Positions 2,448 to 47,714 of a DNA stretch of 64,000 nt are shown here, in pieces. The notes under the pieces were generated by a model, which was given only the letters and a program-made list of their open reading frames with translations, did not search any database and was not told the origin of the DNA. Source of the stretch: a virus. Each line of letters begins with the position of its first letter. The first letter of the stretch is position 1. The DNA lies in the IMG/VR virus record IMGVR_UViG_3300001589_000007, positions 1 through 64,000 of that record. One strand, 5' to 3'. Both the position numbers and the translations under genes were made by a program.

Positions 2448-2464
2448 TATTGCTTTAAAATTTA

Positions 2465-2494
2465 AAATAGGTCCTTTCGGGGGCCTATTTTTTT
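2465..2494 (+). terminator. Rho-independent terminator after gp23
   Basis: AAATAGG (2465-2471) pairs with CCTATTT (2484-2490), extended inward by T-G and C-G pairs, and the stem runs into a T tract ending at 2494. It closes the gp22-gp23 transcription unit. Confidence 0.9.
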
Positions 2495-2496
2495 GA

Positions 2497-2503
2497 CTAA
2501 ATA
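2497..2503 (+). promoter_or_regulatory. Candidate late promoter (CTAAATA) for the riboswitch transcript
   Basis: CTAAATA is a known variant of the T4-type late promoter in cyanophages. It lies just after the gp23 terminator. The expected start, six bases after the motif, is base 2509, right before the first stem of the riboswitch at 2510. The motif is short, so the call rests on this exact placement. Confidence 0.55.
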
Positions 2504-2506
2504 TTT

Positions 2507-2554
2507 GTACGTTCATCCTATAAGGACGGAAGTAGCATAAGCGAAGGAACGCAC
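2507..2554 (+). ncRNA. Glutamine riboswitch of the glnA / Downstream-peptide type
   Basis: The sequence matches, from memory of the family, the conserved core of the glnA and Downstream-peptide RNAs, which bind glutamine. CGTTC (2510-2514) pairs with GAACG (2547-2551) to form P1. TCC (2516-2518) pairs with GGA (2524-2526). The signature GACGGAAGTAG (2525-2535) and CGAAGGAACG (2542-2551) are both present, with a small GC stem (2535-2536 with 2541-2542) between them. The family is known from cyanobacteria, marine metagenomes and a cyanophage. In the Downstream-peptide class it precedes a very short ORF, as it does here (2578). It probably tunes translation or transcription of that ORF in response to host glutamine. 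A covariance-model search would settle the class. Confidence 0.85.
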
Positions 2555-2577
2555 TTAACTGTAAAAGGGAGAGTGGT

Positions 2578-2679
2578 ATGGATTATCTTACGTTATGGTA
2601 TTTTAAACGTTTAATCAAAGAAGAAAAAATAAGAAAAATTAACTTTTTATTAAAAAAAAGGTTGACATCTAGTACATAG
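2578..2679 (+). CDS. 33-residue peptide downstream of the glutamine riboswitch
   Basis: An ATG at 2578 with a good purine-rich ribosome site (AAGGGAGAG, 2565-2572) opens a 33-codon frame ending in TAG at 2677-2679. The peptide starts MDYLTLWYFKRLIKEEKIRK and is strongly basic after an aromatic N-terminus, so it may form an amphipathic helix. Its position 24 bases after the aptamer matches the small ORFs that define the Downstream-peptide RNA class. In cyanobacteria, glutamine-riboswitch peptides act on nitrogen assimilation, for example as inhibitors of glutamine synthetase. Whether this phage peptide does the same is inference. The stop codon overlaps the promoter of the next RNA. Confidence 0.65.
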   Translation: MDYLTLWYFKRLIKEEKIRKINFLLKKRLTSST

Positions 2680-2690
2680 ATGCTATTATA
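2662..2690 (+). promoter_or_regulatory. Host-type sigma-70 promoter for the ncRNA
   Basis: TTGACA (2662-2667) is a perfect -35 box. The -10 is TATTAT at 2684-2689 (16-base spacer) or ATTATA at 2685-2690 (17-base spacer). The start would fall near 2697. No late octamer is present, so host polymerase could use it early. Confidence 0.75.
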
Positions 2691-2696
2691 TATACA

Positions 2697-2940
2697 TAAC
2701 TTAGGAGATATCCTTTAGTTAGATAGTGCAAGGAAATGCGTTTATAGAGACGTAACTTGGCTAGTAGCTGTAGTGGCACTGCATGACTGTAGAGATACAG
2801 AGATGTGGATTTTGGAAGTAACTATCCGATGCTAGGTTTCGCTGGTGACACAGAAATGATCTGTACCGGCGCTTGTAGGTGATCATTAAGTCCTACCTAT
2901 CACTTTATATTAAAGGCTCGCCTAAAGCGAGTCTTTTTTT
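2697..2940 (+). ncRNA. Candidate structured non-coding RNA, about 240 nt, class unknown
   Basis: The stretch runs from a strong promoter to a strong terminator and holds no plausible ORF. The two ends pair: CCTTTA (2712-2717) with TAAAGG (2911-2916), and AGT plus GATAG (2717-2726) with CTATC plus ACT (2897-2904). Inside are three clear hairpins. CTGTA-GAGA-TACAG (2787-2800) has a GNRA tetraloop. GCTGGT (2841-2846) pairs with ACCGGC (2865-2870) and is capped by ACAGA/TCTGT. GTAGG (2875-2879) pairs with CCTAC (2892-2896). This is the architecture of an independent multi-branched RNA. I do not recognise it as tmRNA, RNase P RNA, 6S RNA, a tRNA or a group I intron. Confidence 0.7.
2912..2940 (+). 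terminator. Terminator of the ncRNA
   Basis: AAAGGCTCGC (2912-2921) pairs with GCGAGTCTTT (2927-2936) around a CTAAA loop, followed by T's to 2940. Confidence 0.92.
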
Positions 2941-2970: not shown

Positions 2971-2978
2971 GATAAATA
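2971..2978 (+). promoter_or_regulatory. T4-type late promoter, with folded leader to 3067
   Basis: GATAAATA at 2971-2978 gives an expected start near 2984, hence a leader of about 84 bases before the gene at 3068. The leader holds CCGTAT-A-ATACGG (2997-3009) and GCAG/CTGC (3016-3019 with 3030-3033). TAATACG (3002-3008) can alternatively pair with CGTATTA (3033-3039), which would break both hairpins. Confidence 0.8.
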
Positions 2979-3067
2979 CTTGTGTCACAAATCGTGCCGT
3001 ATAATACGGACTTATGCAGAATTGACCCACTGCGTATTACTTAGAACGTAACTTAAGGAGAAAACAA

Positions 3068-3439
3068 ATGGGACGTCCAGTAAATAAAAGATTTTTTGGT
3101 ACGCTTGCAGATGGTACAAATATTACCATTAACTGTCAAGTAGCAGGAAATGCAGAATCAGCAGTAGGTATGATTCTTTCACAAAGATCAGTAAACAAGT
3201 TTAACGTTGATGATAAAAAAGACGGCACAGGTAACGAAGGTGTTTGTTTATTAGTTGATAAAGCAGATGGGGCATTAGGCGCTAACGAAATGTCAATTAA
3301 CGCACAAGATGCCCAAGGCGGAACGATTAGAATTTCTAAATTGTATAACAGAACATGCAAAGATTTTTCTAATAACCGTTACACGTGGGTAATTGAAAAT
3401 GATTCAACAACTTCAGTTATGAGAGTAACAGCTATCTAA
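3068..3439 (+). CDS. Small putative virion structural protein
   Basis: A 123-residue protein (MGRPVNKRFFGTLADGTNI...) with no signal peptide or membrane segment and a beta-rich composition. Similar short proteins lie among capsid and fibre genes of marine T4-like phages, but I cannot name the family. Position after gp23, its own late promoter at 2971, an AAGGAG ribosome site and a folded leader suggest a late, abundant product such as a capsid decoration or fibre-associated protein; that is inference. No enzyme motif is visible. Confidence 0.75.
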   Translation: MGRPVNKRFFGTLADGTNITINCQVAGNAESAVGMILSQRSVNKFNVDDKKDGTGNEGVCLLVDKADGALGANEMSINAQDAQGGTIRISKLYNRTCKDFSNNRYTWVIENDSTTSVMRVTAI

Positions 3440-4825: not shown

Positions 4826-5344
4826 ATGAGATTAATTAAAGCACAAAGTACTAGCGTAAGAAATATTAAAGCTAAAGGTATTCGATACGATATTAATCAA
4901 GTTGTTCAACTAGGTGGTGAACAAGGAGTAGTAGTTCCAATGGGAAATACTGCAAGCCGTCCTTTGTTTCCTGTTAACGGAATGATTAGATATAATACCG
5001 AAACTGGCTCACATGAATCTTATGCTGGAGGATCAGCAGGTTCCGGAGGGACTTGGGCTAAATTAAAAAGACAAGAACCAGTAAATATTGTACAACAGAA
5101 CTTAGGAGTAGGTGATGGTAGTGAGGTCGACTTTGGTCCTCTAGATAGCGGCGATATAGATGCACCAGTACCAAGTGCTCCTCAGAACGTAATAGTACTA
5201 GTTGAAACAGTTTTTCAGATTTCAAGTACGAACTATACGTTAGTACAAAATCCTGCAGGTAAGGCTGAAGGATTTTACATTAGATTTGGATCAGCACCCC
5301 CAGTTGGTAAGCCAGTAACAGTGCTACACAACTTTGATAAATAA
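4826..5344 (+). CDS. Fibre-related structural protein
   Basis: A 172-residue protein. Its middle contains RPLFPVNGMIRYNTETGSHE near residue 46, a form of the 'R......G..RYNT....E.Y....W' motif that recurs near the C-termini of the two giant fibres encoded at 6361 and 11939. There it marks the end of the shaft. The remainder is a beta-rich domain ending FGSAPPVGKPVTVLHNFDK. It may be a separate fibre-tip or linker subunit that matches the fibres' C-terminal module. It sits in the same tight gene run (3-base gap upstream, 18-base gap downstream). Confidence 0.7.
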   Translation: MRLIKAQSTSVRNIKAKGIRYDINQVVQLGGEQGVVVPMGNTASRPLFPVNGMIRYNTETGSHESYAGGSAGSGGTWAKLKRQEPVNIVQQNLGVGDGSEVDFGPLDSGDIDAPVPSAPQNVIVLVETVFQISSTNYTLVQNPAGKAEGFYIRFGSAPPVGKPVTVLHNFDK

Positions 5345-5362
5345 TATTAAGGAGACACTTGT

Positions 5363-6319
5363 ATGGCAACGTTAAAAAGTTTATTAGGCAGTAAGAATTT
5401 TACCAGTGGTGAAACTAATTTAGAAAAAGGTAAAGTTTGGGCATATGACAACGGCTCAATGTATGGGTGTATGTGTAACGGATTTTGTTGGGTTTCGCCA
5501 GGTAACGGAACTGTTAGATTAGAAGTATGGGGTGCTGGCGGTAGTGGCGCAAGAATGTGTTGCTGTGGAGGAGGTCTTCCAGGTAATGCGGCCGCTTATT
5601 CAATGAAAGAATTTAACGTAGGTAGCGGAAATTACTCGTGCGGATGTATGGGTAAATCTTGTGGTAATGCAAGTTCATTATGTAATAGAGGTTGTGGTTC
5701 TAATAGTGCCGCATGTTGGTTTAGTAATAGTACCAACGGGTGCATGTGTGCCCAAGGCGGAATGGGTGGACAAAGTTTTTGTTCAACATCTCCTAGCTTA
5801 TATTGTTGCTATAGAGCAAACGGTTATTGTACAACTAATAGAGGACCAAACTGTGGTATAGTGTGTAATGCCTGTAGTGGTGCTTGGATGGCATGTGGAT
5901 ATGGCGGAGATATAAACTGTTGTGGCTGTGTAAGTTGCTCTAGTTTCTTAGGATGTTATCCAGCTTGTACATGTATGAAGTATTATCATGTTGCATTACC
6001 TGCAAACGTATTTGCTAAAGAAGGTACTATTGTAACGTATTCTACTGAAGATGATAATCCTTACTCACGTTGGTCAGGTCAAGGAATGCACTCATATGTA
6101 AATGCACTTAATGCGGCTAGTAGAAATCCGTCACAAGGTGTTTATCATGGATCATGTTGGATGGGTAATAGAGCATGTCAGTGTTATGAAATGATGGGTT
6201 GTCAACAGCATGTACCTTATGGATCAGGCGGTCCTGCAAGTAATCCGTGTCCAGGTGTTAGAGACCACGGATGGCGTGGCGGTAGTGGCGCAGTACGTAT
6301 TAAGTACATAGCAAACTAA
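5363..6319 (+). CDS. Cysteine- and glycine-rich putative adhesin, paralogue 1
   Basis: A 318-residue protein with about 34 cysteines (over 10%), many in CxC, CC and CCC clusters (MCCCGGG near residue 66, then a run of GCMC, YCCY and NCCGC motifs to about residue 200). It begins with a short conserved N-terminus (MATLKSLLGS) and a VRLEVWGAGGSGARM strand of the glycine-rich type found in phage fibre-tip proteins. The C-terminus is a conserved PCPGVRDHGWRGGSGAVRIK. Two paralogues lie at 29202 and 30177 at the far end of the adhesin locus. I infer a disulphide- or metal-stabilised receptor-binding tip, but no known fold can be proven by eye. No signal peptide is seen, consistent with a virion part made in the cytoplasm. 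Confidence 0.8.
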   Translation: MATLKSLLGSKNFTSGETNLEKGKVWAYDNGSMYGCMCNGFCWVSPGNGTVRLEVWGAGGSGARMCCCGGGLPGNAAAYSMKEFNVGSGNYSCGCMGKSCGNASSLCNRGCGSNSAACWFSNSTNGCMCAQGGMGGQSFCSTSPSLYCCYRANGYCTTNRGPNCGIVCNACSGAWMACGYGGDINCCGCVSCSSFLGCYPACTCMKYYHVALPANVFAKEGTIVTYSTEDDNPYSRWSGQGMHSYVNALNAASRNPSQGVYHGSCWMGNRACQCYEMMGCQQHVPYGSGGPASNPCPGVRDHGWRGGSGAVRIKYIAN

Positions 6320-6360: not shown

Positions 6361-9300
6361 GTGGCACAACTAGGTAGAATATCTGGACAGGTATTAGAAA
6401 ATAACTTACTAAGGCAGAATGTAAATTTAGATTTTAGAAATCTAAATGCTAGTACGCCTCTTCTTAAATTTGATGTACAAAATAATCTAATCGGTGTTAA
6501 CACCTCATCTCCCTCACAACTTTTAACTGTTAATAGTACTGCTAACGCTACAAATCTATTAACAACTAATAGTGTTACTGTAAATAACTTTAGTATTACT
6601 AATACTGGAATAGATGCACTTTCAGGAACATTTACAGTAAATGGCGCTACTGGTGTAAACGCTACTGGTATCGGAACTGACCAATTAATTATAAGAGATA
6701 ATAGGATTTATTCTTATGTAAGTGATGCTCCTGTAACACTTTCACCAAATGCTTCAGGTACTATCGGTGCTCTAGTACATACACTAGATAACCCAAATGC
6801 TTATAGTACAAGTTCAGGTGATCAGTTTGGTGAGGTAGTAGCAATAGACGGTAACTCGGCTATAGTCGGCGCTCCATGGGAAGATGACGCAGGTGGATTT
6901 ACTTCAGGTAAAGCATACATATTCAATGTAACCTCAGGTGCTTTAGTACATACACTAGATAACCCAAATGCTTATAGTACAAGTTCAGGTGATTTCTTTG
7001 CTGGGTCAGTTGCAATTTCAGGTAACTATGCTATTGTTGGCGCTCGCGGAGAAGATGAAGCAGGTGGTAATAATTCAGGTAAAGCATACATATTCAATGT
7101 AACCTCAGGTGCTTTAGTACATACACTAGATAACCCAAATGCCTATAGCACAAGTACTAGTGATAGATTTGGTGATAGGGTTGCAATATCAGGTAACTCG
7201 GCCATAGTTGGTGCTTATATTGAAGATGATGCAGGTGGATTTAGTTCAGGTAAAGCATACATATTCAATGTAACCTCGGGTGCTTTAGTACATACACTAG
7301 ATAATCCAACTGCTTATGGCACTAGTGCAAATGATTACTTTGGTTCGAGTGTTGCAATAAGCGGTAACTATGCTATCGTTGGCGCTTATCAGGAAGATGA
7401 TGCAGGTGGTAGTAGTTCAGGTAAAGCATACATATTCAATGTAACCTCGGGTGCTCTAGTACATACACTAGATAATCCAAATGCCTATAGCACAAGTGGA
7501 GGTGATAGATTTGGTAGTGCGGTTGCTATATCAGGTAACTCGGCTATTGTAGGTGCTTGGGGCGAAGATGACGCAGGTGGATTTAGTTCAGGTAAAGTAT
7601 ATATCTACAATGTAACCTCAGGTGCTTTAGTACATACACTAGATAATCCAACTGCTTATAGTACAAGTTCAGGTGATACCTTTGGTTCGAGTGTTGCAAT
7701 AAGCGGTAACTTGGCTATCGTTGGCGCTTATCAGGAAGATGATGCAGGTGGTAGTAGTTCAGGTAAAGCATACATATTCAATGTAACCTCAGGTGCTCTA
7801 GTATCTACAATAGATAATCCAAACGCTTATGGTACAAGTGCAGATGATGACTTTAGTTATCAAGTAGCAATATCAGGTAACTCGGTTATTGTAGGTGCAG
7901 ATGGCGAAGATGATGCAGGTGGTAGTCAGTCAGGTAAAGCATATATCTACAAAATAGAAAATACTATTGAGTTACTAACCAACACTAATGTTACAGGCAA
8001 TTTACATGCTACTGGAAATATTACAGCTAACGGAAATATTGTTATTGGTAATGATGATAATGATAGTTTAACATTATCAGGCGAGTTAGTAACTGATATT
8101 ATACCAGATGCTACAGCAACATACAATTTAGGTAGCACATCAAAACGTTGGTCAAATTCTTGGGTAAAAGATGTTACTAGTAATGTAGTAACAGCTGACC
8201 TCGCAACTATTGACGGTGTTAGTTTAACACAAACACAAGGAAATATAGTGTATATTTCCAAAAATGGTAGTGACACAAATACAGGAACCCATCAAAATGA
8301 TACTGTTTTAACTTTAGAAAAAGCAATAACACTAGTATCAGCCGGTGATACAATTCATATATATCCTGGTACATATGTAGAAACATTTCCTTTAACAATT
8401 CCAGTTGGAGTAACCGTTACTGGTGAAGATATGCGTAATGTTATTCTAACTCCCACTGGTGCAACAGAGTCTAATGATGCTTTCTTAATTAACGGCGAAG
8501 TAACTATTGAAAATTTAACTATTAAAGATTTTTACTATAACAGTGGTGCTGATACTGGTTACGGATTTAGGTATACTGCAAGTAGTGTAGTAACTTCAAG
8601 AAGTCCATACATTAGAAATTGTACAGTTATTACTAAAGGTAGTGTAACAAGTGTAAGTGATCCTAGAGGATTTGCACAAGGAGATGCAGGCAGAGGAGCA
8701 TTAGTTGACGGTGCAAGTGTTACAACTTCAAGCAAAGAAGCTGGAATGTTATTCCATGCGGCAACATTTATTACTCCGGGTCAACAAGGACTAACATCAA
8801 AAAATGGTGCTAGGATTGAGTGGCTTAATAGCTTTACGTACTTTGCATCTATTGGCATAGTAACAGAACAAGGATCAACAGGACTTGCAGGACAAGGTGT
8901 AAAATACGGTTCAGAAATACGCTGTATTGGAAGTGCTAATGTTTACGGAACTAAGGCTATTGTAGCAGATGGTGCAGGTACACTAATATATCTAGTAAAT
9001 CATAACTTTGGATATATAGGTGTAGGTAAAGATGTAACGAACGACAAAACTTTACATATACAAGCAAATGAAGTTACTAAATTAAATAGTGCAGTAGTTG
9101 TGTTTACGTCTTTAGACCACGGCGGGGTTTATCGGGTTGGCAGTGCATTAGAAGTAAATCAAGAAACAGGTGAAACAGTAATTGACTCTACAAATTTTGA
9201 TTTTAGTGGAGTCGAAAAATTAACAATATCAACTGGTGGACAATCTGTACAGCTTAAAGGTGAAAAAGTAGAAACTGATTTTATTAAATTTTCAGGATCT

Positions 9301-11820
9301 ACATTAGAAACTATAGTAGGAGAATTAACTTTAGATGCAGGAGGCGGAGACTTTAATTTTACTAGTAATACTAATATCTCTGGTAATTTAGATGTAACAG
9401 GAAATGTAACATTAGGTGGAACACTTGTTAGGTTAGGAAATGCAGATACTGATAAGATAGATTTTAATGCTGACATTGAAGGTAATTTAATACCAAATTT
9501 AAATAGTTTTAGCTTAGGACGTAACGGAAAGCAATGGAATACTATACATGCTAGTAATATAGATCTTGATAACTTATCTATTCAAGGTAATAAAATTAAA
9601 ACAGACGAATCTAATGCAGATTTAGAATTAGATGGTAACGGCTCGTTTCCCGGACATGTTTACTTTACTGCAACAGACGTTTTAGGAACAGTTACTACTA
9701 CTGCAACTTCTGGAAGAAATGTTTTTACAGAAGCTAATATAAACGGACAACTTACAGTTACAGGTAATTTAATAGGAAGTGGAACAAGTCATACCTTACG
9801 TCAAATTAGCACATCATCATTAGTAGCAAATTCTAGTAATAACTTAACTACATTTGATAATATATCGTTTAACGGAAATCAAATTAATACAACAACAGGT
9901 AATGATGATTTAAACTTAGACCCATCAGGAACTGGAAAGGTCAATTTTTTATCAAATTTAGATGTGGTAAATCTAATTGCTCCTAGTGCAAGTGTTAGTA
10001 TTGCTAATGCGTCAGGATTAGATAAAGTAGTTGGAGAAGAGTTACTTTCACAAAATATTATTTTAACAGGTGATGCAGTAATAGAAGATATTGCTATAGC
10101 TGATAATATGATATCGACTAGAACTAGTAATAGCGATTTAGTACTTAAAGCAAGTGGAGCAGGAACTATAAGGTTCCAAGAAGATGTTATACTTACTGGC
10201 GATGTAATAACTCCGGCAACAAGTACTGTTGCATCAACCTCTACTGGTAATCTTGGTGCGAATAGATTAATAGTACAAACACTTAATTCAGAAAATAAAC
10301 AAATTATATTTGAAGATGTTATGTTTGCTGGTAATAGAGTTACAAGTACAGATTCTAATAGTGACCTAGAGTTTAGAGCAAACGGATCAGGTATAGTAAG
10401 AGTTAAGGAAAATTTTATTGCTAGTAATGATTTGACTGTAGGAAAAATAACTTCTTTACAAGCAACTACAATAAACAATACACTTACAGTTGATACTATA
10501 ACTGCAACAAATATATCCGGCGTAGGTAGCAGTATATTTGAAGGTGTATCTCTTAGTGGAAATGTAATTAGTACTAAAGACTCAGATGCTAATTTAGAAT
10601 TACGAGCTAATGGAACAGGTAAAGTTACATTTGGTGAAAACGTTGTTGTTGAAAATGATGTTACAGTTAGTGGTACAACCACTATTGGTAGCATAAATGT
10701 ACAAAATACATTTGAAACACTTAACTTTAATTCTGTAAATTTAAATATATCAGGAACATCAACACTAAAATCAAATATTGATAAAGTAAGAATAAGCGGT
10801 AATACAATTAATACTATTGTTACTGACACTGATTTAGAATTACGTGCAAGCGGTTCTGGTGTTATTTCTATGAATGAGAATGTTGTAATTCCTAACAATA
10901 TTACAGTTAGTGGAACTCTTAACACAAAAAATATTAACATACAAAATGATGTAGATTTAGGATCGCTTGAAGTACTGGGCAACATACAAATTAATGATAA
11001 TTTTGTAGAAACAACAGTTAGTGATAGTGATCTAGAACTTAGAGCAAATGGAAGTGGAATAGTTGATTATAACGGATTATCTTTTAGTAGTAATATATTA
11101 ACAAATACTACAGGCAATCTACAATTAGATCCTACTGATATATTAAAGATTAATACAACTGGTTCTATTTTATTATCAAAAGGCACAACTGCACAAAGGA
11201 GTGGATCACCTACAGTTGGCACAGTTAGATATAACACAACTATAAATCAATTTGTTGGATATGGTCCAACAACAAATGTTGTATTAAGTAGTGCATTACT
11301 TTCGGACAATTATCAGACAGGAATAGAACTTTCTAGTATTGGTATTAGTAATGATTTAAATTTTAAGATAAACGGATCTATTGTTTCTAAGTTTACTAGT
11401 AATAATAAAACCGAATTTAATAAAGTTGAACTTAGTGGTATGACTTTAGATTCTAATAACCTTACAGTTACATCTGCTGATACAGACTTAACACTTGATG
11501 CTAGACATGCAAGAGTTGCATTTGATAAATTACAGTTTTCTGATTTATATGTTTATGCAGATAATGCAACAGTTTCCTTTGCAAATACAGGCCAAGGATC
11601 AGTTAAATTTAACGATAATAAAGCGTTAGTATTACCTGCAGGAAACAGTGCAGGTAGAGAAACATCACCAGAACTAGGCCATACAAGATACAATACTGAG
11701 CTTGCATATTTAGAGGTATTTACTGGCGGAGCCTGGACTACAGCCGTCGGAAGTGGCGGTGCAGCCTCGGCTGCCGACATGGCAGATGTCCTTAATACCT
11801 ACACTATCATCTTTGGGTAG
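6361..11820 (+). CDS. Giant modular tail-fibre protein with seven-bladed beta-propeller and beta-helix
   Basis: An 1819-residue fibre starting at a GTG behind AGGAG. Order of parts: an N-terminal attachment region (MAQLGRISGQVLENNLLRQN) shared with the protein at 11939; seven 57-residue repeats at about residues 136-534, each with D.FG..VAI.GN.AIVGA and GKAYIF, which is the FG-GAP/integrin-type blade; a 'YNLGSTSKRW' fibre module near residue 590; a right-handed beta-helix (residues about 625-925) of the pectate-lyase-like type, with VYISKNGSDTNTG and AGDTIHIYPGTY; then about a dozen shaft modules of the form 'I..T..SNSDLELRANGTG'. It ends with the RYNTELAYLEVF module. Seven blades would close a propeller exactly. 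The likely role is host recognition or binding of surface sugars at the tail. Confidence 0.9.
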   Translation: MAQLGRISGQVLENNLLRQNVNLDFRNLNASTPLLKFDVQNNLIGVNTSSPSQLLTVNSTANATNLLTTNSVTVNNFSITNTGIDALSGTFTVNGATGVNATGIGTDQLIIRDNRIYSYVSDAPVTLSPNASGTIGALVHTLDNPNAYSTSSGDQFGEVVAIDGNSAIVGAPWEDDAGGFTSGKAYIFNVTSGALVHTLDNPNAYSTSSGDFFAGSVAISGNYAIVGARGEDEAGGNNSGKAYIFNVTSGALVHTLDNPNAYSTSTSDRFGDRVAISGNSAIVGAYIEDDAGGFSSGKAYIFNVTSGALVHTLDNPTAYGTSANDYFGSSVAISGNYAIVGAYQEDDAGGSSSGKAYIFNVTSGALVHTLDNPNAYSTSGGDRFGSAVAISGNSAIVGAWGEDDAGGFSSGKVYIYNVTSGALVHTLDNPTAYSTSSGDTFGSSVAISGNLAIVGAYQEDDAGGSSSGKAYIFNVTSGALVSTIDNPNAYGTSADDDFSYQVAISGNSVIVGADGEDDAGGSQSGKAYIYKIENTIELLTNTNVTGNLHATGNITANGNIVIGNDDNDSLTLSGELVTDIIPDATATYNLGSTSKRWSNSWVKDVTSNVVTADLATIDGVSLTQTQGNIVYISKNGSDTNTGTHQNDTVLTLEKAITLVSAGDTIHIYPGTYVETFPLTIPVGVTVTGEDMRNVILTPTGATESNDAFLINGEVTIENLTIKDFYYNSGADTGYGFRYTASSVVTSRSPYIRNCTVITKGSVTSVSDPRGFAQGDAGRGALVDGASVTTSSKEAGMLFHAATFITPGQQGLTSKNGARIEWLNSFTYFASIGIVTEQGSTGLAGQGVKYGSEIRCIGSANVYGTKAIVADGAGTLIYLVNHNFGYIGVGKDVTNDKTLHIQANEVTKLNSAVVVFTSLDHGGVYRVGSALEVNQETGETVIDSTNFDFSGVEKLTISTGGQSVQLKGEKVETDFIKFSGSTLETIVGELTLDAGGGDFNFTSNTNISGNLDVTGNVTLGGTLVRLGNADTDKIDFNADIEGNLIPNLNSFSLGRNGKQWNTIHASNIDLDNLSIQGNKIKTDESNADLELDGNGSFPGHVYFTATDVLGTVTTTATSGRNVFTEANINGQLTVTGNLIGSGTSHTLRQISTSSLVANSSNNLTTFDNISFNGNQINTTTGNDDLNLDPSGTGKVNFLSNLDVVNLIAPSASVSIANASGLDKVVGEELLSQNIILTGDAVIEDIAIADNMISTRTSNSDLVLKASGAGTIRFQEDVILTGDVITPATSTVASTSTGNLGANRLIVQTLNSENKQIIFEDVMFAGNRVTSTDSNSDLEFRANGSGIVRVKENFIASNDLTVGKITSLQATTINNTLTVDTITATNISGVGSSIFEGVSLSGNVISTKDSDANLELRANGTGKVTFGENVVVENDVTVSGTTTIGSINVQNTFETLNFNSVNLNISGTSTLKSNIDKVRISGNTINTIVTDTDLELRASGSGVISMNENVVIPNNITVSGTLNTKNINIQNDVDLGSLEVLGNIQINDNFVETTVSDSDLELRANGSGIVDYNGLSFSSNILTNTTGNLQLDPTDILKINTTGSILLSKGTTAQRSGSPTVGTVRYNTTINQFVGYGPTTNVVLSSALLSDNYQTGIELSSIGISNDLNFKINGSIVSKFTSNNKTEFNKVELSGMTLDSNNLTVTSADTDLTLDARHARVAFDKLQFSDLYVYADNATVSFANTGQGSVKFNDNKALVLPAGNSAGRETSPELGHTRYNTELAYLEVFTGGAWTTAVGSGGAASAADMADVLNTYTIIFG
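6766..7962 (+). repeat. Seven tandem 171-bp coding repeats (beta-propeller blades)
   Basis: The seven copies lie in register with the reading frame and are very alike at DNA level over their 'GALVHTLDNPNAYSTS' segments. The last copy has diverged most. This is the pattern of recent tandem duplication within the fibre gene. Confidence 0.9.
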
Positions 11821-33783: not shown

Positions 33784-35601
33784 ATGAGTAAAAAACCAAT
33801 TTGGATCGCGGCAATCGCAAGAGGACATAATGCAGGAGTTTGTTTACTTAAGGACGGAGAAGTAATATTTTCAGTTGAAGAGGAAAGACTATCAAGACAA
33901 AAGTATGACGGTGGACCTTTTGCGAGCATGGTTAAAATACTAGACTACACTGATAAGATTGACTATCTTGTAGTTGCACATACACAACCTTTACAAGAAA
34001 CAGCAGGTAAAGTAGATTATAGTGGTGATGATGTTTATACAGGACTAGCAAGAAAATTAGGATTAATTGATCAAAAAGCAAACAATACATCTTTTGAACA
34101 TCCTCAAGTAATTGACTTAGCATTTATGCATCATAAATTACATAGTGCATGTGCATTTTATAGAAGTGGATTTGATAGTGCAGTTAGTGTAATCGTTGAC
34201 GGAGCCGGTACATTTGTTCCATTAGGAATTAATAGTGAACAAGTAATGAGTTGGGAAGTTGAAAGTATTATTGACTGCGACTATCCTGCAGAATTTAGTA
34301 CTAAATTTAAGGTATATGGCACAAGGGAACCTATTCCAGGAGGCATGACTAAAATGCAATCGGATATGTTTGGCGAAACTGGAGAAAGTCATGTAGCCAT
34401 AGTTTCAGATAGAGCTGGTATTACTAAAGTGTACGAAGCAGTAACACAGTATTGTGGCTGGAGTGGAATTGAAGCAGGAAAAACTATGGGACTATTTCCT
34501 TATGGTAAAGAAAATAGTAGTATACCTAAATTATTTGACGATCAATCTCTCTATCCTTTATCAAATAGAAACCTAATTGTTCCTAACTATCCTAACGGTG
34601 CTATAGTAAATAGTGGCATATATGAATTTCTAAATGAAATAAATCAAATGGAAAACCAAGATAAGGATCTGTCTAAGCTAGATAGTAGACGAGATATGGC
34701 ATATGCTTGTCAAGTAGAAACTCAGGAACAAGTCGTAAAATTGATTAAACAAGCTGTTGAAGAAACAGGAAAGAAAAAAGTAGTTATTAGTGGAGGATAT
34801 GGATTAAACTGTGTTGCTAACTATCATTACTTAGATGTACTTAAAGACGAAGGAATTGAAATCTATGTTGAACCAGTAAGCAACGATGCAGGCACAGCAA
34901 TGGGTGCGGCAATGATGTTTTGGTACGGGTTGGAAGAAGATTCAAATGTAAAACAAACACAATCTTTATATCTAGGTCCTGATAATAACTATACAATTGA
35001 TGATATTATTAGTAAAACATCAGCAGTAGAAGGTATTTCTATTGAAGATGCTACTAACTATAATATTGTTGAACTATTAACACAGAAAAATATTGTTACT
35101 ATCTTTCAAGGTAAAAGTGAAAATGGACCACGTGCATTAGGTAATAGAAGTGTACTATTTGATCCAACATTTGAAGATGGAAAAGACTTTGTTAATGGAG
35201 TTAAACATCGAGAGTATTTTAGACCATTTGCTGGTAGCATATTACAAGAAGATGTACACGAATGGTTTGATTTGCGAGGAATGGATGATAGTCCATACAT
35301 GATGTATGCAGTAAATTGTCAACCGGGTATTGCAGAAAAAATACCAAGTATTATTCATGTTGATGGTACATGTCGTATACAGACTGTTACAAAGGAACAG
35401 AATTCACATTATTACGATCTAATTAAAACATTTAAAGATAAAACAGGTACTCCGATACTATTTAATACAAGTTTTAATTTAGGCGGAGAGCCGTTAGTTG
35501 AAACATTAGAAGATGCTATATGGACATTACAACAATCAAACATCGAGTACTTGTACTTGCCTGAATTTAAGAAACTTATAACGGTTGCCAATAAAGAATG
35601 A
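33784..35601 (+). CDS. Carbamoyltransferase (NodU/CmcH/TobZ family)
   Basis: A 605-residue protein, normal length for the family, which transfers a carbamoyl group from carbamoyl phosphate via carbamoyl-adenylate to a sugar or antibiotic hydroxyl. The N-terminal half is the TsaD-like ATP-grasping fold, opening IAAIARGHNAGVCLL and containing FMHHKLHSACAFYRSGF (metal-binding histidines H116/H117 and H120) and SVIVDGAGT. Near residue 338 is VISGGYGLNCVANYHY and near residue 366 SNDAGTAMGAAM. The C-terminal carbamoylation domain begins around residue 440 with FQGKSENGPRALGNRS. A single base separates it from the SGNH gene, so the cassette is one transcription unit. Confidence 0.93.
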   Translation: MSKKPIWIAAIARGHNAGVCLLKDGEVIFSVEEERLSRQKYDGGPFASMVKILDYTDKIDYLVVAHTQPLQETAGKVDYSGDDVYTGLARKLGLIDQKANNTSFEHPQVIDLAFMHHKLHSACAFYRSGFDSAVSVIVDGAGTFVPLGINSEQVMSWEVESIIDCDYPAEFSTKFKVYGTREPIPGGMTKMQSDMFGETGESHVAIVSDRAGITKVYEAVTQYCGWSGIEAGKTMGLFPYGKENSSIPKLFDDQSLYPLSNRNLIVPNYPNGAIVNSGIYEFLNEINQMENQDKDLSKLDSRRDMAYACQVETQEQVVKLIKQAVEETGKKKVVISGGYGLNCVANYHYLDVLKDEGIEIYVEPVSNDAGTAMGAAMMFWYGLEEDSNVKQTQSLYLGPDNNYTIDDIISKTSAVEGISIEDATNYNIVELLTQKNIVTIFQGKSENGPRALGNRSVLFDPTFEDGKDFVNGVKHREYFRPFAGSILQEDVHEWFDLRGMDDSPYMMYAVNCQPGIAEKIPSIIHVDGTCRIQTVTKEQNSHYYDLIKTFKDKTGTPILFNTSFNLGGEPLVETLEDAIWTLQQSNIEYLYLPEFKKLITVANKE

Positions 35602-43000: not shown

Positions 43001-44468
43001 CGAAATTACTAATGAAGGTGCATTAGGTAGATTAAAAAATGCATTAGGTACTGGTGATACCATACTTTATTTAGATGATGTAGATTTCTTTCCAAATGCT
43101 GGAACAGTATATATTGATAACGAACTCATAACTTATACTGGTAGAGATGAATCAACTAATACATTTACAGGTTGTAATAGAGCGGCATCATTAACAAATT
43201 TTCAATCAGGCGCACTAAGAACTTATACAGCAGGCCCGGCGGCAATACATACAGCAAAAACTGGAGTAGTGTTGGTAAGTAACACTTGTACTCCACTTAT
43301 ATCGCATTGGGGATCTGCATTTATTACAGATGGCGGATTTGACGATGATCGAGGTTACATCTTCTCATACGCTGAACAAGGTCTAACTATTAGTACTACA
43401 AGACAAACAGCATTTTTGATTAGACTAGCACCAAGTGTATCAAACGCTATTACAGGTGACTTAGGTGATAGAGAACTATTAAATAGAGCTCAACTACTAC
43501 TAACAGGACTTGAAATTACAAGTGAATCAAGTACTGGCGGTATTGTTGTTGAAGGTGTTCTTAATCCTCAAAACTATCCTACTAACCCGTCATTGGTTGG
43601 TTGGTCAGGATTATCAGGACTTGCACAAGGTGGACAACCTAGTTTTGCTCAAATTGCTTCAGGCGCTGGTATTACATGGTCAACTGGTGCGGCGGCGACA
43701 ACAACGACACTTACTGCACAAGGTACCATAACAGCTCAGCTAGATAGTGGAATATATAATACAAATAATAATTCAAGTTATGTATTTGTTAGTGGTATTG
43801 ATTATAGAACTACATTTGGTTCAAATGATATTGAATTTGTTGTTGGACGTACTATAACTGGTGCAAATATTAGTAGTAATACAACCATTAACGACGGATA
43901 TATTGACAGTAGTGGTAATTATGGGTATTTTAGATTGAGTCGAAGAACAAGTGGTAGTATTGGTACAAACCAATCAAACTACTTTTCGCTAACTGAAGGT
44001 GGCGATCAAGTTAATACAAACTTTGCATTAGTAACACAAGCAAGTTGGGAAGCATCGGGCGGTACAAACGGAACAAATGTTGATCCAGGAACATCAAGTC
44101 CAAACTTTCCATCAGGTACACTAATTAACAACGTTGAACAAAAGAATTTTGCTGGTACAACATATTATCGACTTACATTTAATAACGCAATGGACGGAAC
44201 ACTAACAGCAGGTAGCGGTACAATTACGCTACAGTTTATTCAACCACCGTTTGCTCAACCAGGTGAAACAGTACTATCGTTTATTGCTACACCAAATGAG
44301 AGAGCGTCACTAGACTTATCACAGTTGAAAGAACTTACAAATACTACATTAGGCGGTAGAGGAACATTTCCAAATGGTCCAGATGTTTTAGCAATTAACG
44401 TTTATAAAACAACTGGCTCAGATGTAGTAGCTAATTTGATTCTACGTTGGTCTGAAGCTCAAGCCTAA
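37029..44468 (+). CDS. Very large tail-fibre protein (2479 residues) with tandem beta-repeats
   Basis: The largest gene of the window, starting at a GTG. The N-terminal 460 residues contain at least three copies of a helical module with the pattern 'KCQRDIGYIIDGVAFD' or 'KCQRDLGYMLDAYKYD..YGGN', also present in the fibre at 23090. Residues about 860-1560 hold seven or eight divergent repeats of roughly 75-100 residues with a 'GSGATFNV...G.YTV....G..Y..G......G...GG.TP.ND..I.I..VD..G.I......G.A' consensus. The rest holds folded domains with DDNDHGLQIGAIIKLIGID and an EYSWYGAGFIEFMVRG segment known in marine T4-like fibres. Its stop overlaps the end of the convergent oxygenase gene by four bases. 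No terminator is seen at the junction. Likely a major long fibre or its tip. Confidence 0.85.
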   Translation: MAKKRIHNYIFKPGIGYTENLYPNAYSLLNSNRAFLLAESLAYIDQEIIDATKCQRDIGYIIDGVAFDVALQTNFSTLFLGRAERYSVDNSNTVIRTINRTKTSVAALTDVAADATSLSRSNAAFTEILDIIQNNSPNTLTLTNPTDATASRIAAKDKIIANKDFLRNEIIAWTNVTYPTYDATQSNGVSSGACDVKYAIEAAAYDILYGGNSGSYDVAKLFPNSAASTVSLSGTHQTHVVAGYGRLKTIIAQVVLGTTVSVTAGNSTVQVTSGTNADSSDGTVVTSLIDIFNDVLQTGASTLAGLTRTVPAITWASTGIQTAKAAIDTNKATIVAAVTFPTTYSYNQTKCQRDLGYMLDAYKYDLRYGGNSKTYKYAKKYWDGDVAQIDGNRVPEIDTHAHIADLINNYIFPQVTWTKLGSVDQVTDATIAYEGSATTTRITELSNLLIDTITTGLSALPTFVDTGAGYIKFIGNYNSSDILLITNTSDNEVIYSFNEPLKGGLTEISQGTVGDPIGQQFYADPDFAKYLQVTDAVTTIQLNFNTASGLSTDELQIFVDTDELVVRPYEFGTDAIERMRVAPPLSMLDADFEYGLQPTKWSAIATMRGYPSVYEIPGTETDVSLVRTDSSAGTGGVGASLIVVTTVGAHGFEEGDAITLKGLNQGVIGTARAEGAFIITEVPSPTTFTYYAKAKVGSGGTIDIQVESTQLRKAGFYTGASIGESPGVVVQSNGSSGTISPALVVPTGEDIIPFTVVTGAAPEIGSPLTGTGIPTGAQVTGKVGPGGVIVTPVMTADTTQGSTSIEVQSVTGVAINQAADRGDGQAMIVNSVAGTTINFNDALTAEFKGNLVTYTDVNGVNDTSNGNGLILNVSRASGSYTVDSIVISGESYEVGDQLVILGDVVGGTSPANDMSIVVNSIDTAGEVLSLTVSGTAFAGNGTFNSVTATYLHNNGDGGIWNVTYDGGVYSGTLVEPSYSNQTGTTSGGAGTGAIWNVTSTNNTYGITIDPNEVGVTGYSQYDLIKIPGNTLGGATPDNDAQITITSINSVGFPTNFTVAGNGANAQNNYIGVTYSTNGSGVGATLNINAVGSTYTAAFSVTGSGFSVGNTVTVLGTQLGGTTPANDCTITLDTVDTGGEILTFTVTGTAYNVATYNNVSNGTNLIGSGASFDVAKNGTSYTVSLNASGADYAPNQTITLPGINFGGATPNNDLVLTITDVDNDSTLTAGPLLTFNAVGTATRGTNGYVVNDVLKISGGQFTNGQNVTNDMIILVTGVGGAGNITSSSYSGTAPNATATYNAVAPSGGTGSSLTLDVTRTGAVYSLVLNDVGSGYVAAETLTIVGASLGGSTPANNATVTIDGVDGSGAVTSASISGAAANAGSANGLASEQNPGSGATFNVGLSGGSYTVTIASAGSQYVANQKFKVLGENLSGITPTNDAEVTISSVDATGAITGASITGSGSTDVASFVNVVVSNASLTGNGADFNILRDGTSADSSVGIYTVTGSNQGSGYDVGNRIIIGGGSVGGTPQTNDITISVASIDSAGAIVTFTYIGDAFAGTDLQLYSTTTIDSAVTAPLSTSQNITFEALATLRITFTTPHGLVPGDTFITTVSSDSGSNNHNLAAGSFLAIAVPTKFTLDYTARSVGAIVTSGTDIISAIVYPRPDSFFIHRPYDGGVQLGTGGPQHGAQAIRQSKKYIRYQSGKGIMYTTGALFAPSYDLRGATANGVETGSTITVVTDDNDHGLQIGAIIKLIGIDTPGYNGTYTVNDVTDERTFEVTAGLRLGATTATLSFNAQVSTSKWHGATVRSGIFDDQNGIYWEYDGTNLLVCQRTSTKQVAGTATISPDTNVLTGTNTRFQDQLKAGDRIVIRGMTHVVAHVNSQTEVNVTPDYRGVNTAVGCKVCLVSDKKVRQSDFNLDRFDGTGPSGYNIDVAKMQMIGIEYSWYGAGFIEFMVRGADGNFIYAHRMRNSNINTEAFMRTGNLPVRYEITNEGALGRLKNALGTGDTILYLDDVDFFPNAGTVYIDNELITYTGRDESTNTFTGCNRAASLTNFQSGALRTYTAGPAAIHTAKTGVVLVSNTCTPLISHWGSAFITDGGFDDDRGYIFSYAEQGLTISTTRQTAFLIRLAPSVSNAITGDLGDRELLNRAQLLLTGLEITSESSTGGIVVEGVLNPQNYPTNPSLVGWSGLSGLAQGGQPSFAQIASGAGITWSTGAAATTTTLTAQGTITAQLDSGIYNTNNNSSYVFVSGIDYRTTFGSNDIEFVVGRTITGANISSNTTINDGYIDSSGNYGYFRLSRRTSGSIGTNQSNYFSLTEGGDQVNTNFALVTQASWEASGGTNGTNVDPGTSSPNFPSGTLINNVEQKNFAGTTYYRLTFNNAMDGTLTAGSGTITLQFIQPPFAQPGETVLSFIATPNERASLDLSQLKELTNTTLGGRGTFPNGPDVLAINVYKTTGSDVVANLILRWSEAQA
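39610..41720 (+). repeat. Seven to eight divergent repeats in the giant fibre gene
   Basis: Protein-level repeats of about 75-100 residues. The most conserved segment is 'GGTTPANDCTIT' and its variants. DNA identity is lower than in the propeller repeats, so these duplications are older. Boundaries are approximate. Confidence 0.75.
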
Positions 44469-45019
44469 GCGTGTATATTATAGTTTACAATACACCTAGG
44501 TACGTCAGTTGGATAACCGCCTGCATGTAAATGACTGCCGTCAAACAATACAACCCGGCCTTTTTTAGGAGATACTCGTTGTTTCTCTACTAGCTTAAAA
44601 TTATTTTCTATTGTTTTATCTTCAAAGAATACAGTATCTCCGTCTGAATCATTTACGTAATATATTAATGCTAAATGAGGTAAGGGTAAATCTGTATGCG
44701 GTCTGTAGTGAGGAAGTTTAGTCTTATGTGGAACTGTAATAAACAGTCTTGCTTGTATTATGTCAATTAGATTCATTTCTAGTTTTTCAAATACAATTTG
44801 AGGAACTTTGCTAAAATTTCCAAAGTGATCAGTGTTAGTAGTACTACTTTTAAATACATGTTGGAAGCTAACCGGTAATGGATTTTCACCATCAAACGCT
44901 GTAGGTTCTACTTTACAAGTTAAAGGAAGCATAGCATTAATATCTGTGCTTCCAAAAACTTGCATATGTAGATAATCTTGTATTTCAATTGGGATTAGAT
45001 CATCACGTACTATAATCAT
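44465..45019 (-). CDS. 2OG-Fe(II) oxygenase-like protein
   Basis: A 184-residue protein that would fold as a jelly-roll 2-oxoglutarate/Fe(II) dioxygenase. The iron triad is H108-x-D110 in YRPHTDLP and a distal H165 in HLHAGGYP, and the 2OG-binding Arg is R175 in VPRCIVNYN. It is the last gene of the minus-strand operon and overlaps the GmhB-like gene by one base. Its substrate cannot be read from sequence. In T4-like marine phages such enzymes are common and may hydroxylate proteins, sugars or nucleic acid. Its 3' end overlaps the convergent fibre gene by four bases. Confidence 0.75.
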   Translation of the reverse strand: MIIVRDDLIPIEIQDYLHMQVFGSTDINAMLPLTCKVEPTAFDGENPLPVSFQHVFKSSTTNTDHFGNFSKVPQIVFEKLEMNLIDIIQARLFITVPHKTKLPHYRPHTDLPLPHLALIYYVNDSDGDTVFFEDKTIENNFKLVEKQRVSPKKGRVVLFDGSHLHAGGYPTDVPRCIVNYNIHA

Positions 45020-45663
45020 TAGTATGCAGTTTCTAAATAATCTACAAATGCCGACAAATTATCAAACGCTAACATTGCTTTTGCAATCTTTTTATACGCA
45101 TGTCGACTATTAATTAATTCTTCAGTTTCAACACCATGACCTGTACGTATTAACACAGGCCTTGCACCAACTTTCATAGCGGCTTTTAAGTCTCTTAGTC
45201 TGTCACCTGCATAATATCCTTGTTTAAATTTTACATGAGGAATTTCTTTTTCTGCACGTTTGAACATTCCTGCGTTTGGCTTTGCATACATATCAGTTTT
45301 ATGACTACATGCACTATAGTATAACCCGTCAATACTGGGGCATCCTGCTTCGCCTAACGCTTTAAACATATGCTCGTGTACTTTATCAACATCTTGTTCG
45401 GTATATATACCTTTATGAATACCACCTTGGTTTGTAATTATAACAATTTTATGTCCAAGTTTGCGTAATTTTACAATGGCTTCTAAACTACCCTTTTCAA
45501 ATTCCCAATCTTCTACTTTATAAACATAATCGCCTATATCTACGTTAATAACTCCGTCTCTATCTAAGCCAACAACACATTTTGGTGCTATATATCCAGG
45601 CTTATAAAAGTCAATATCAACATCATTACTCCATACTATTTTTGGTTCAACCATCTTTAACAT
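45019..45663 (-). CDS. gmhB: D-glycero-D-manno-heptose bisphosphate phosphatase (GmhB-like, HAD-IIIA)
   Basis: A 214-residue HAD phosphatase. Motif I is LDRDGVIN with nucleophile D34 and acid D36. Motif II is TNQGG (77-81), the conserved Lys is in KPNAGMF (K128), and the metal acid is in AGDRLRDLK (D154, D158). The subfamily features fit GmhB, which removes the 7-phosphate of heptose 1,7-bisphosphate in the ADP-heptose pathway; histidinol-phosphatase relatives share the fold. GmhB often carries a CxH...CxC zinc loop. Only CSH (119-121) is visible here, so that loop is reduced. It overlaps the cupin by 17 bases. The HldE and HldD partners in the same operon make GmhB the best name. Confidence 0.85.
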   Translation of the reverse strand: MLKMVEPKIVWSNDVDIDFYKPGYIAPKCVVGLDRDGVINVDIGDYVYKVEDWEFEKGSLEAIVKLRKLGHKIVIITNQGGIHKGIYTEQDVDKVHEHMFKALGEAGCPSIDGLYYSACSHKTDMYAKPNAGMFKRAEKEIPHVKFKQGYYAGDRLRDLKAAMKVGARPVLIRTGHGVETEELINSRHAYKKIAKAMLAFDNLSAFVDYLETAY

Positions 45664-46063
45664 TCCCTGTTATTTCTTCAAGCATTCCAGCTTGGCTATC
45701 ACCAGGAATAATCCTGTAATTATCTTCAACACTATCAGCAGTGCTTACTTCAGTTATACTACTACCATCTTCTAATGCTTCTAACTGATGTGGACGCAAA
45801 GGCGGATTGTGCCATGTCATGCCTTGTGTAAGAGTGTGTGTAAATAATGTAGCAGTAGTTGTATCTAACCATCTAACAACAAAACTACCTTCGTTTACAA
45901 ACCATGTCTCGTCTTTTTCTTTATGAAAATGCATACTAAATTTATTTCCTTTTTTCTCAAAGAACATAATTTTTCCGCAGTACTTGTCAGTAGTTGCCCA
46001 AATAATTTCATATCCCCAGCCTTTGTCTACTTTACCTTCAAGTCTTGTAGGTGTCTCATTCAT
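45647..46063 (-). CDS. Cupin-domain protein, sugar-isomerase-like
   Basis: A 138-residue single-domain cupin. The core SMHFHKEKDETWFVNEGSF (residues about 43-61) gives the H-x-H-x5-E metal motif, and the second motif lies at P..PHQLEAL (about residue 90). The opening GWGYEIIW resembles the 'PWG' entry of the mannose-6-phosphate isomerase C-terminal domain of GDP-mannose pyrophosphorylase-type proteins. In this operon it could act as a sugar-phosphate isomerase or epimerase, possibly at the step where GmhA is missing, but that is a guess. It overlaps HldD by one base. Confidence 0.75.
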   Translation of the reverse strand: MNETPTRLEGKVDKGWGYEIIWATTDKYCGKIMFFEKKGNKFSMHFHKEKDETWFVNEGSFVVRWLDTTTATLFTHTLTQGMTWHNPPLRPHQLEALEDGSSITEVSTADSVEDNYRIIPGDSQAGMLEEITGNVKDG

Positions 46064-46887
46064 TAAAGATTCTCCTCAATCCATTCAAATGGTGTGGTAA
46101 ATTTAAATTTACCGATTGTGTTTAATAATTTATCATTGTTACTTTTTGTGAAACTCTGGTATTGACTTTTTACACTATCTGGAATAGGTATTTCTTTTAC
46201 GACAGCATTATGTTTATTAGCAATACATTTAGCAATATTGCCAAAGCTAGTTGCTTCACCTGTACCTACATTCCATATACCACTTTCATCTATATCTACA
46301 AATTTTGAAATAATTCTACAAACATCATCAACACATATAAAATCTCTACATATAGTATCACTACCTTCAAAAGGAAGTACAGATCCTTTAATTGCTTGAT
46401 CTGTAAATTTATGAAATACACTCATTTGAAACCCTTTATGATCTTCGTGGTTGCCATAAACATTAAAAAATCTTAATCCTTGTACATTGCATTGATATTC
46501 ACTCCAATCTAGCTTTTGTACAGTTCTATCAAATAAATATTTACTCCATGCATATGGTGACTGAGGTTGTAACGGACCGTCTTCTGTAAAATGCGTAGTA
46601 GGACCATATACACTTGCACTTGATGCATAGATAAGGTCAACGCCTTGCATATCACACACATGTAATAATCTTTCACTAAAGTCAAGATTTTGTTTCATAA
46701 CTTTTTCTACATCAGTTTCTGTGGTGCTACTAATAGCACCTAAATGTATAACTTTATCAAATTGACTGCAATCAGGAACTACATTTTCTATCCATTCGTA
46801 TTCAGCAATTCCGTGTCCTTCTTTCATAAGGTGTGCAGACAGATTTTTGCCAATAAAACCACTACTTCCAGTAATTAATATTTTCAT
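46063..46887 (-). CDS. hldD: ADP-glycero-manno-heptose 6-epimerase (HldD-like)
   Basis: A 274-residue extended short-chain dehydrogenase. It has the Rossmann glycine motif GSSGFIG (7-13), HLGAISSTTETD (48-59), ASSASVYG (88-95), Y112-x3-K116 in PYAWSK, GLRFFNVYG (137-145), EDHKGFQMSVFH (148-159, with K151 at the position of the second catalytic Lys) and FEGSDTICRDFICVDDV (173-189). AISSTTETD and the HKG-SVFH segment are typical of HldD, not of generic UDP-glucose epimerases. HldD normally uses NADP to invert C6 of ADP-D-glycero-manno-heptose. It is shorter than the E. coli enzyme (310). Between the cupin and the aldolase in the operon (1-base overlap, 2-base gap). Confidence 0.9.
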   Translation of the reverse strand: MKILITGSSGFIGKNLSAHLMKEGHGIAEYEWIENVVPDCSQFDKVIHLGAISSTTETDVEKVMKQNLDFSERLLHVCDMQGVDLIYASSASVYGPTTHFTEDGPLQPQSPYAWSKYLFDRTVQKLDWSEYQCNVQGLRFFNVYGNHEDHKGFQMSVFHKFTDQAIKGSVLPFEGSDTICRDFICVDDVCRIISKFVDIDESGIWNVGTGEATSFGNIAKCIANKHNAVVKEIPIPDSVKSQYQSFTKSNNDKLLNTIGKFKFTTPFEWIEENL

Positions 46888-46889
46888 TA

Positions 46890-47714
46890 TTAAGAACTTG
46901 CTCCTTCGATTGCTATGATATTCTCTGTAATACGCTTGTTAAATTCTGATTCGTCTTGGTACGAATATATTCCTTCACTTAATGCTCTACTAAAACTTGC
47001 ACTCATATCTAAATTTTCACTAAGTTTTTTACATGCTAAACTTGTCTCATAACCTCCACTAAGCCCAACAAGTTTTTTAACACTTTTATGTTGCGATAAG
47101 TCGTGATACAAATTAGCTTCGTTAGGAATAGTTAGTTTTAAAATAACTTGTGGTAGAGTATTATCAAACCTTTTACTAATATTATTTGCAAACGAATCTA
47201 AATGAGGTTTGATACTTTCATTTAATAACATTTCAAAATGATGTTTATGTTCAATATCAATAGGAATTTCAGGCTCAATAATCGGAACTAAGTTTTGGTT
47301 AGCAATTTTCATAGCATACTTAAACTGCTGATCCACAATACTTTCAATCATGTCTTCAGTTTTTACAATACTACGCATTTTTGTACCAGTACATCCATGC
47401 CAGGATGCGTATTCTGTCATGGAAAAAATATCAAATTCTTTTAATAAGCCATCCTCATCGCAACCACTATCAATTTTTAAATAGGATTCAATTCCTTTAT
47501 TCCTAAGTACTTCTACTGCTCCCTTATCAACAGAATCTTTGTAAAGTATTGCCGCCCAAATATTACTACTATTAAATGCAGGAGAGTTTATCATTCTCAA
47601 ACGCATTTCGTGTACTAACTCCATTTTATTTTCTTCTGTATATTCCTGTCCGTAGCGGTCTAAAACTCCGCCTGTTGATCCGCCGCTATGATCCATTGCC
47701 GCTATAAATTTCAT
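46890..47714 (-). CDS. fda: Class I fructose-bisphosphate aldolase (short bacterial type)
   Basis: A 274-residue protein that follows the short class I aldolase family closely: opening FIAAMDHSGGSTGGVLDRYG (residues 3-22), KIDSG (80-84), the GTKMRS phosphate segment (110-115), IIEPEIPID (145-153), the Schiff-base lysine K193 in LKLTIPNEANLY, LSGGYE (218-223) and SFSRAL (240-245). These enzymes interconvert fructose-1,6-bisphosphate with DHAP and glyceraldehyde-3-phosphate, and class I aldolases can also form sedoheptulose-1,7-bisphosphate. It overlaps its upstream neighbour by four bases. Phage aldolases of this class are unusual. A link to heptose precursor supply is inference, carbon-flow control being the alternative. 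Confidence 0.9.
   Translation of the reverse strand: MKFIAAMDHSGGSTGGVLDRYGQEYTEENKMELVHEMRLRMINSPAFNSSNIWAAILYKDSVDKGAVEVLRNKGIESYLKIDSGCDEDGLLKEFDIFSMTEYASWHGCTGTKMRSIVKTEDMIESIVDQQFKYAMKIANQNLVPIIEPEIPIDIEHKHHFEMLLNESIKPHLDSFANNISKRFDNTLPQVILKLTIPNEANLYHDLSQHKSVKKLVGLSGGYETSLACKKLSENLDMSASFSRALSEGIYSYQDESEFNKRITENIIAIEGASS

Follow-up and report, generated by a model that had tools for sequence, protein, structure and literature searches.

In a large T4-like phage, a type I glutamine riboswitch placed behind the major capsid gene precedes a conserved open reading frame (ORF) for a small basic peptide, and the whole probably constitutes a late-promoter-driven, glutamine ON switch for a host-directed peptide of 33 residues. 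The window, i.e., the whole stretch of DNA analysed, corresponds to 64 kb of a 70 kb IMG/VR virus contig, and its relevant features are collected in Table 1. In the mechanism proposed, a T4-type late promoter would start a short mRNA, the 5' end of which would be the L-glutamine aptamer of type I. Without ligand, GCACUU just past helix P1 would base-pair with the stretch over the Shine-Dalgarno sequence, so that translation would be held back. At high glutamine, the ligand-stabilised P1 would reclaim the shared bases, namely the last G of P1 and the linchpin C pairing with the junction G, the ribosome-site stem would open, and the 33-residue basic peptide would be made late in infection, presumably to act on a target in the host. 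The aptamer, the late-promoter position, the covarying stem, the coding conservation and the recurrence behind the capsid gene are directly supported. Cassettes of this kind, a sensor joined to a peptide, are carried by many aquatic phages, as the relatives show, and these phages probably make a tiny host-directed protein solely in glutamine-rich infected cells.

Table 1. Features of the riboswitch-peptide locus and its surroundings (positions in the window).
Feature	Position	Strand	Evidence
Terminator-like hairpin and T run, ending the capsid-gene transcript	2464-2491	+	12-bp stem, -14.5 kcal/mol, z -4.1
T4-type late-promoter-like box, ACTAAATA	2496-2503	+	-15 from aptamer GTTC
Glutamine riboswitch aptamer, type I (RF01739, glnA leader)	2508-2555	+	Rfam cmscan
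Candidate expression platform, stem CACUU (2552-2556) / GAGUG (2571-2575)	2552-2575	+	folding z, covariation
33-codon ORF for a small basic peptide of the aromatic-Cys family, net charge +6	2578-2679	+	in-frame homologues
Sigma-70-type promoter, TTGACA-16-TATTAT	2662-2689	+	11/12 consensus matches
Diverged manA-type RNA (RF01745)	2698-2906	+	36.8 bits, E 7e-8 (701-nt search), cut-off 55.2
Intrinsic terminator, directly past the manA-type RNA	2912-2936	+	z -4.45
Late-promoter-like box, GATAAATA	2971-2978	+	ahead of the freshwater-2 RNA
Freshwater-2 RNA (RF02980), leader of gene 3068-3439, the next of the structural region	2995-3070	+	58.5 bits, cut-off 49.9

The presence of a glutamine riboswitch, first put forward in an earlier note from the letters of the sequence, was borne out by the Rfam covariance-model search that the note had proposed as a check, the type I model RF01739 matching over its complete length (model positions 1-53) with 53.6 bits, against a gathering cut-off of 35 bits, and an E-value of 5.6e-9 for the 64 kb window. 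The class had been named there as Downstream-peptide/glnA and only the second part of this name holds, since the type II (Downstream-peptide) model RF01704 reaches 19.2 bits against a cut-off of 33 and was rejected. The spacing of 24 bases given between the aptamer and the ORF likewise needs correction, as the ATG stands 22 nt past the aptamer match. The aptamer is made of three helices, with P1 at 2510-2514/2547-2551; all strongly conserved consensus positions of RF01739 are kept and the conserved junction sequences are fully retained. Over 20 viral aptamers, compensatory changes on both sides occur at 6 of the 12 pairs of P2 and P3. We infer that the window aptamer binds L-glutamine. It is very improbable that the aptamer has decayed to a functionless remnant, as might be suspected from the close relative L122 (capsid 96% identical), which has no aptamer and another gene in the slot: every strongly conserved model position is present in the window aptamer, which is conserved jointly with the peptide, the promoter and the stem, and L122 lost or never had the entire unit, no broken aptamer being kept there.

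The ORF behind the aptamer, described in the earlier note as tiny, basic and provided with a strong ribosome site, encodes MDYLTLWYFKRLIKEEKIRKINFLLKKRLTSST and has GGGAG at 2567-2571 as its ribosome site. Its conservation in related phages, also proposed for verification, is clear: in-frame homologues occur in 13 relatives, across which the divergence at the three codon positions is 0.267, 0.254 and 0.433, respectively, and close pairs give a dN of 0.02-0.06 for a dS of 0.18-0.49, i.e., a dN/dS of about 0.1-0.2, with stops in the two other reading frames. As judged from these substitution patterns, the 33-codon ORF is coding and under purifying selection. With a significant covariance-model match and a reading frame preserved in relatives, neither of the refuting outcomes named in the earlier note occurred. 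Members of the wider peptide family begin with the aromatic-Cys motif M..[FYW]..[WYF]C and share basic residues, the window peptide having a Tyr in place of the family Cys. The latter peptide is predicted by AlphaFold2 as one helix (pLDDT 92); an amphipathic, membrane-active helix was considered and is not claimed, the helical moment being below that of shuffled sequences. It matched none of the Pfam and PHROG families, including DUF4278 (PF14105), and a profile search against the PDB returned chance matches only.

A more specific proposal is that the peptide acts like IF7/IF17 and blocks the host glutamine synthetase at high glutamine. The sensor and the stem design are indeed shared with the leaders of these inhibitors, and size and positive charge are similar; nonetheless, profile similarity is absent (hhalign probability of 0.4% over 12 columns, upon which homology to IF7/IF17 was rejected) and, according to the description of Melnitz, a related phage infecting OM43, both phage and host lack glnA and homologous genes for glutamine synthesis (PMC9004378). 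Such an activity is thus improbable and, given the lack of homology, the comparison with cyanobacterial glutamine-synthetase inhibitors drawn in the earlier note is to be read as an analogy. Of the nitrogen-sensing device proposed there, what stands is an aptamer before a conserved basic peptide in the late region, and what finds no support is the link to glutamine synthetase or PII. Phage "nitrogen-sensing host control" is a plausible reading of the locus.

Respective to genomic position, the gene upstream of the riboswitch (1275-2447) encodes the major head protein (PHROG 138, E 3.5e-101), 65-70% identical to those of jumbo phages, e.g., Phosso, PA5oct and GAP32, in agreement with the placement after the major capsid gene initially reported. 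Because a terminator-like hairpin, also found in the relatives L125, L137 and L143, separates the two, the riboswitch is not simply part of the capsid mRNA. T4-type late promoters start transcription about 6 nt after their box, and the start expected here, at about 2509, would thus fall at the first aptamer bases. The box of the window deviates from the late-promoter consensus TATAAATA and plain counts of TATAAATA across the window are fewer than expected by chance, so that it is the placement of the box with respect to the aptamer, rather than its frequency, on which the promoter claim is based. Viral riboswitches were gathered with an exact core pattern (at least 120 stretches). In the 97 viral first-copy aptamers among the matches listed, NNTAAATA starts at -18 to -14 in 54 cases, with 32 at exactly -15, and gives eight matches at 44 other positions. 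Just 1 of 65 cellular glutamine riboswitches has this late box, and it precedes a 77-codon ORF resembling a phage peptide family. From this positional evidence, the aptamer is predicted to be the 5' end of a late transcript.

The capsid linkage recurs as well. Among the matches listed, a gp23-type capsid gene ends no more than 700 nt upstream in 31 of the 90 viral first copies having at least 700 nt of upstream sequence; the capsids of these 31 loci are 32-87% identical to that of the window, and the late box abuts the riboswitch in 26 of them. The cassette is sporadic, being carried by 4 of 58 capsid relatives with sufficient downstream sequence. A riboswitch is present in 5 of 12 tested contigs, each having a single site with one copy or a tandem. 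In L122, the ORF occupying the slot after the capsid gene (5171-5434) resembles IscU/NifU by eye, and this slot seems to serve for cargo.

Downstream of the peptide ORF, the sigma-70-type promoter overlaps the 3' end of the ORF and drives the next RNA rather than the riboswitch; in many relatives, a comparable promoter lies at -4 to +21 relative to the stop codon of the peptide. RNAs matching RF01745 reach 80-82 bits in the homologous slot of L070, L089 and L143, and 55-82 bits over the syntenic relatives as a whole. With its own promoter and terminator, the manA-type RNA resembles a free-standing RNA or an attenuated leader and not an ordinary 5' UTR. The arrangement of promoter, manA-type RNA and terminator (2662-2936) was also seen in several relatives, and the order late box, freshwater-2 RNA and gene (2971-3439) in about ten related loci; altogether, the 620-nt gap upstream of the next structural-region gene holds three structured RNAs. 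The absence of a terminator between the ORF and the manA-type RNA, by which the transcript could reach 2936, and the lack of a strong terminator ahead of the next gene in some relatives would allow the riboswitch to control the manA-type RNA or the structural genes, the 33-codon ORF being then a leader peptide or a chance ORF. This is distinctly improbable considering the purifying selection on the ORF, the promoter and terminator belonging to the manA-type RNA itself, the constancy of the peptide as a partner where the following genes vary (in Melnitz, a gp33-type late-transcription coactivator), and the building of the candidate expression platform on the peptide ORF's own ribosome site.

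This expression platform covers the ribosome site and the region 2548-2580 folds with a z of -2.96. In the leaders generally, GCAC(U/C)... straight after P1 pairs with ...GUG(U) just ahead of the start codon, the stem covering or abutting the ribosome site in 53 of the 60 clear-register leaders among the matches listed. With true partners, the mean stem is 6.42 bp, compared with 5.58 +- 0.10 bp upon shuffling (maximum of 500 shuffles, 5.85). With the register fixed from the other positions, p4 is paired in 98% of leaders against 77 +- 3% when shuffled, a value reached by 0 of 2000 shuffles, and its pairs are C-G (32), U-A (24) and U-G (3); p5 and p6 contribute little to the covariation. Shared descent of the leaders means the shuffles somewhat overstate the significance of these figures, though the alternative pair types span several peptide families. 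Cellular leaders exhibit the stem design of the phages, p2 being mostly G-C in place of the A-U of phages, and the cyanobacterial IF-like and DUF4278 leaders have an equivalent design, GCGCCUC/GAGGCG. A covarying ribosome-site stem is thus observed as a candidate expression platform, and its location over the ribosome site points to a translational switch.

As to the direction of the switch, a review of the crystal structure describes how bound glutamine brings G23 into P1, where it pairs with C60, so that P1 is stabilised from the base upwards (PMC11477058). C2552, the base after GAACG, is presumed to be the natural equivalent of this linchpin residue and is also the first C of the ribosome-site stem; being common to both, it leads to the prediction of an ON switch. 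The prediction agrees with the equivalent stem of the IF-like leaders and with the reported control of IF17 synthesis by the gifB glutamine riboswitch at a glutamine threshold (PMC7760959). Glutamine would rather unlikely act in the OFF direction, with the stabilised P1 stacking on the ribosome-site stem, the peptide being repressed and then made in glutamine starvation. Coaxial stacking is conceivable as the stem starts right at P1, and the ribosome site is equally paired in modelling with P1 enforced. Withholding the linchpin C in folding moved the mean unpaired probability of the ribosome site from 0.36 to 0.39, a shift that does not discriminate ON from OFF. In marine proteobacterial genomes, moreover, type I aptamers precede large ORFs resembling, by eye, an ammonium transporter (428-438 aa) or glutamate synthase, and the transporter-like ones are expected to be glutamine-repressed. 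However, these transporter-like leaders have no ribosome-site stem, whereas one is present in the IF-like and glutamate-synthase-like leaders, whose products should increase with glutamine. The stem also takes up the final base of P1 together with the linchpin C, hence competing with the bound state. Among second codons, those complementary to the 5' P1 strand GUUCAU are enriched (37% versus 10.5% of background genes), in line with a release of the start codon upon P1 formation, with shared ancestry as a confounder. The ON direction is thus the likelier; together with glutamine binding, timing and host action, it belongs to the part of the mechanism that we infer.

Glutamine riboswitches are already known from phages and also from positions ahead of small proteins (PMC2864571, PMC9004378, PMC9964418). 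In the cultured OM43 phage Melnitz (MZ577097), the riboswitch has been described as controlling tmRNA (PMC9004378). It lies at 2500-2548 of the Melnitz stretch L202, just past a tmRNA model match ending at 2492. Behind the riboswitch comes an ORF of 32 aa, MTLYQQWCYLKAQKEYRRRQKILMYFRIRLKG, at 2571-2669 including the stop (46469-46567 of MZ577097); this ORF is unannotated, the record listing an opposite-strand ORF instead. The order tmRNA, riboswitch and peptide is the same in the metagenomic relative L068. As in the window, the aptamer of Melnitz is of type I, 85% identical over 72 nt including the ribosome site and start codon, and the ORF behind it belongs to the same peptide family; unlike in the window, no late-promoter box abuts the riboswitch. 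We read the 32-aa peptide, and not the tmRNA, as the client of the Melnitz riboswitch, which argues for re-annotation of this element. To our knowledge, phage riboswitches are usually listed without a client gene. The client identified here is small enough to be synthesised and recurs in the cultured pair Melnitz/OM43, making the use by phages of knowledge of host glutamine directly testable; gene callers can miss such phage micropeptides under riboswitch control.

Other known systems share parts of this design. The gifB-type RF01739 leader has in common with the window the aptamer, the three-helix junction, the ribosome-site stem after P1 and a small basic client protein, but the window belongs to a T4-like phage, its cassette stands behind a late-promoter box and a capsid gene, and its client is unrelated to IF17. 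The Downstream-peptide motif (Glutamine-II, RF01704) precedes ORFs of 17-100 aa in cyanobacteria (PMC2864571) and was also found in the phage contig MedDCM-OCT-S04-C24, but represents a different aptamer type. The glnA element of the cyanophage S-CREM1 (PMC9964418) places tandem glutamine-type aptamers before a 48-aa ORF; unlike in the window, this client bears the YRG motif of DUF4278-type proteins and the capsid gene is not adjacent. No description of a capsid-linked, late-promoter micropeptide cassette was found in the literature searched, from which most subscription journals lay outside, and the cassette appears undescribed.

Over the viral glutamine riboswitches, the clients are several unrelated families, including DUF4278 proteins as attested by Pfam matches. 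With the client defined as the ORF at the earliest start codon having a ribosome site, a definition slightly biased toward short products, the 94 distinct ORF products among the matches listed (93 from the window and the loci, plus Melnitz; one is cut off by the end of its stretch) are all of 16-78 aa, with a median of 38, and all positively charged, with a median net charge of +6. Their family-wise conservation indicates that these ORFs are genes. In cyanobacteria, type I aptamers precede DUF4278-like, IF-like and small membrane proteins, as named by eye. A client family of 65 aa also occurs in cultured pelagiphages, with no glutamine riboswitch found in the regions examined, which shows that the association of clients with the switch is not strict. 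Two further riboswitch leaders, used as BLAST queries against named phages, gave no match, such short structured queries being perhaps weak. As a tentative extension, the post-capsid slot of aquatic T4-like phages may possibly serve as a late glutamine-gated micropeptide checkpoint, reading host nitrogen status when capsids are being produced and releasing a host-directed effector, with the sensor-plus-slot conserved and unrelated peptide families swapped.

Phage-type riboswitch-peptide cassettes were also encountered in three genome contigs, L259, L241 and L297, filed as Pelagibacteraceae, a proteobacterium and another cellular genome, respectively; these are probably phage contigs binned with their hosts. 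Elsewhere in the window, host-like metabolic genes lie at 33784-35601 and 44465-49394, namely a Nol-like carbamoyltransferase, a sugar epimerase/dehydratase, a fusion of PfkB with a cytidylyltransferase, a PNK3P phosphatase, a class-I aldolase-like protein and a 2OG-Fe(II) oxygenase. An ORF of 1819 aa (6361-11820) with repeats of about 60 residues (ALVHTLDNPNAYSTSSGD...) is probably a tail-fibre or adhesin-type protein, and the structural region further encodes a 318-aa protein (5363-6319) with an unusually cysteine-rich middle part.
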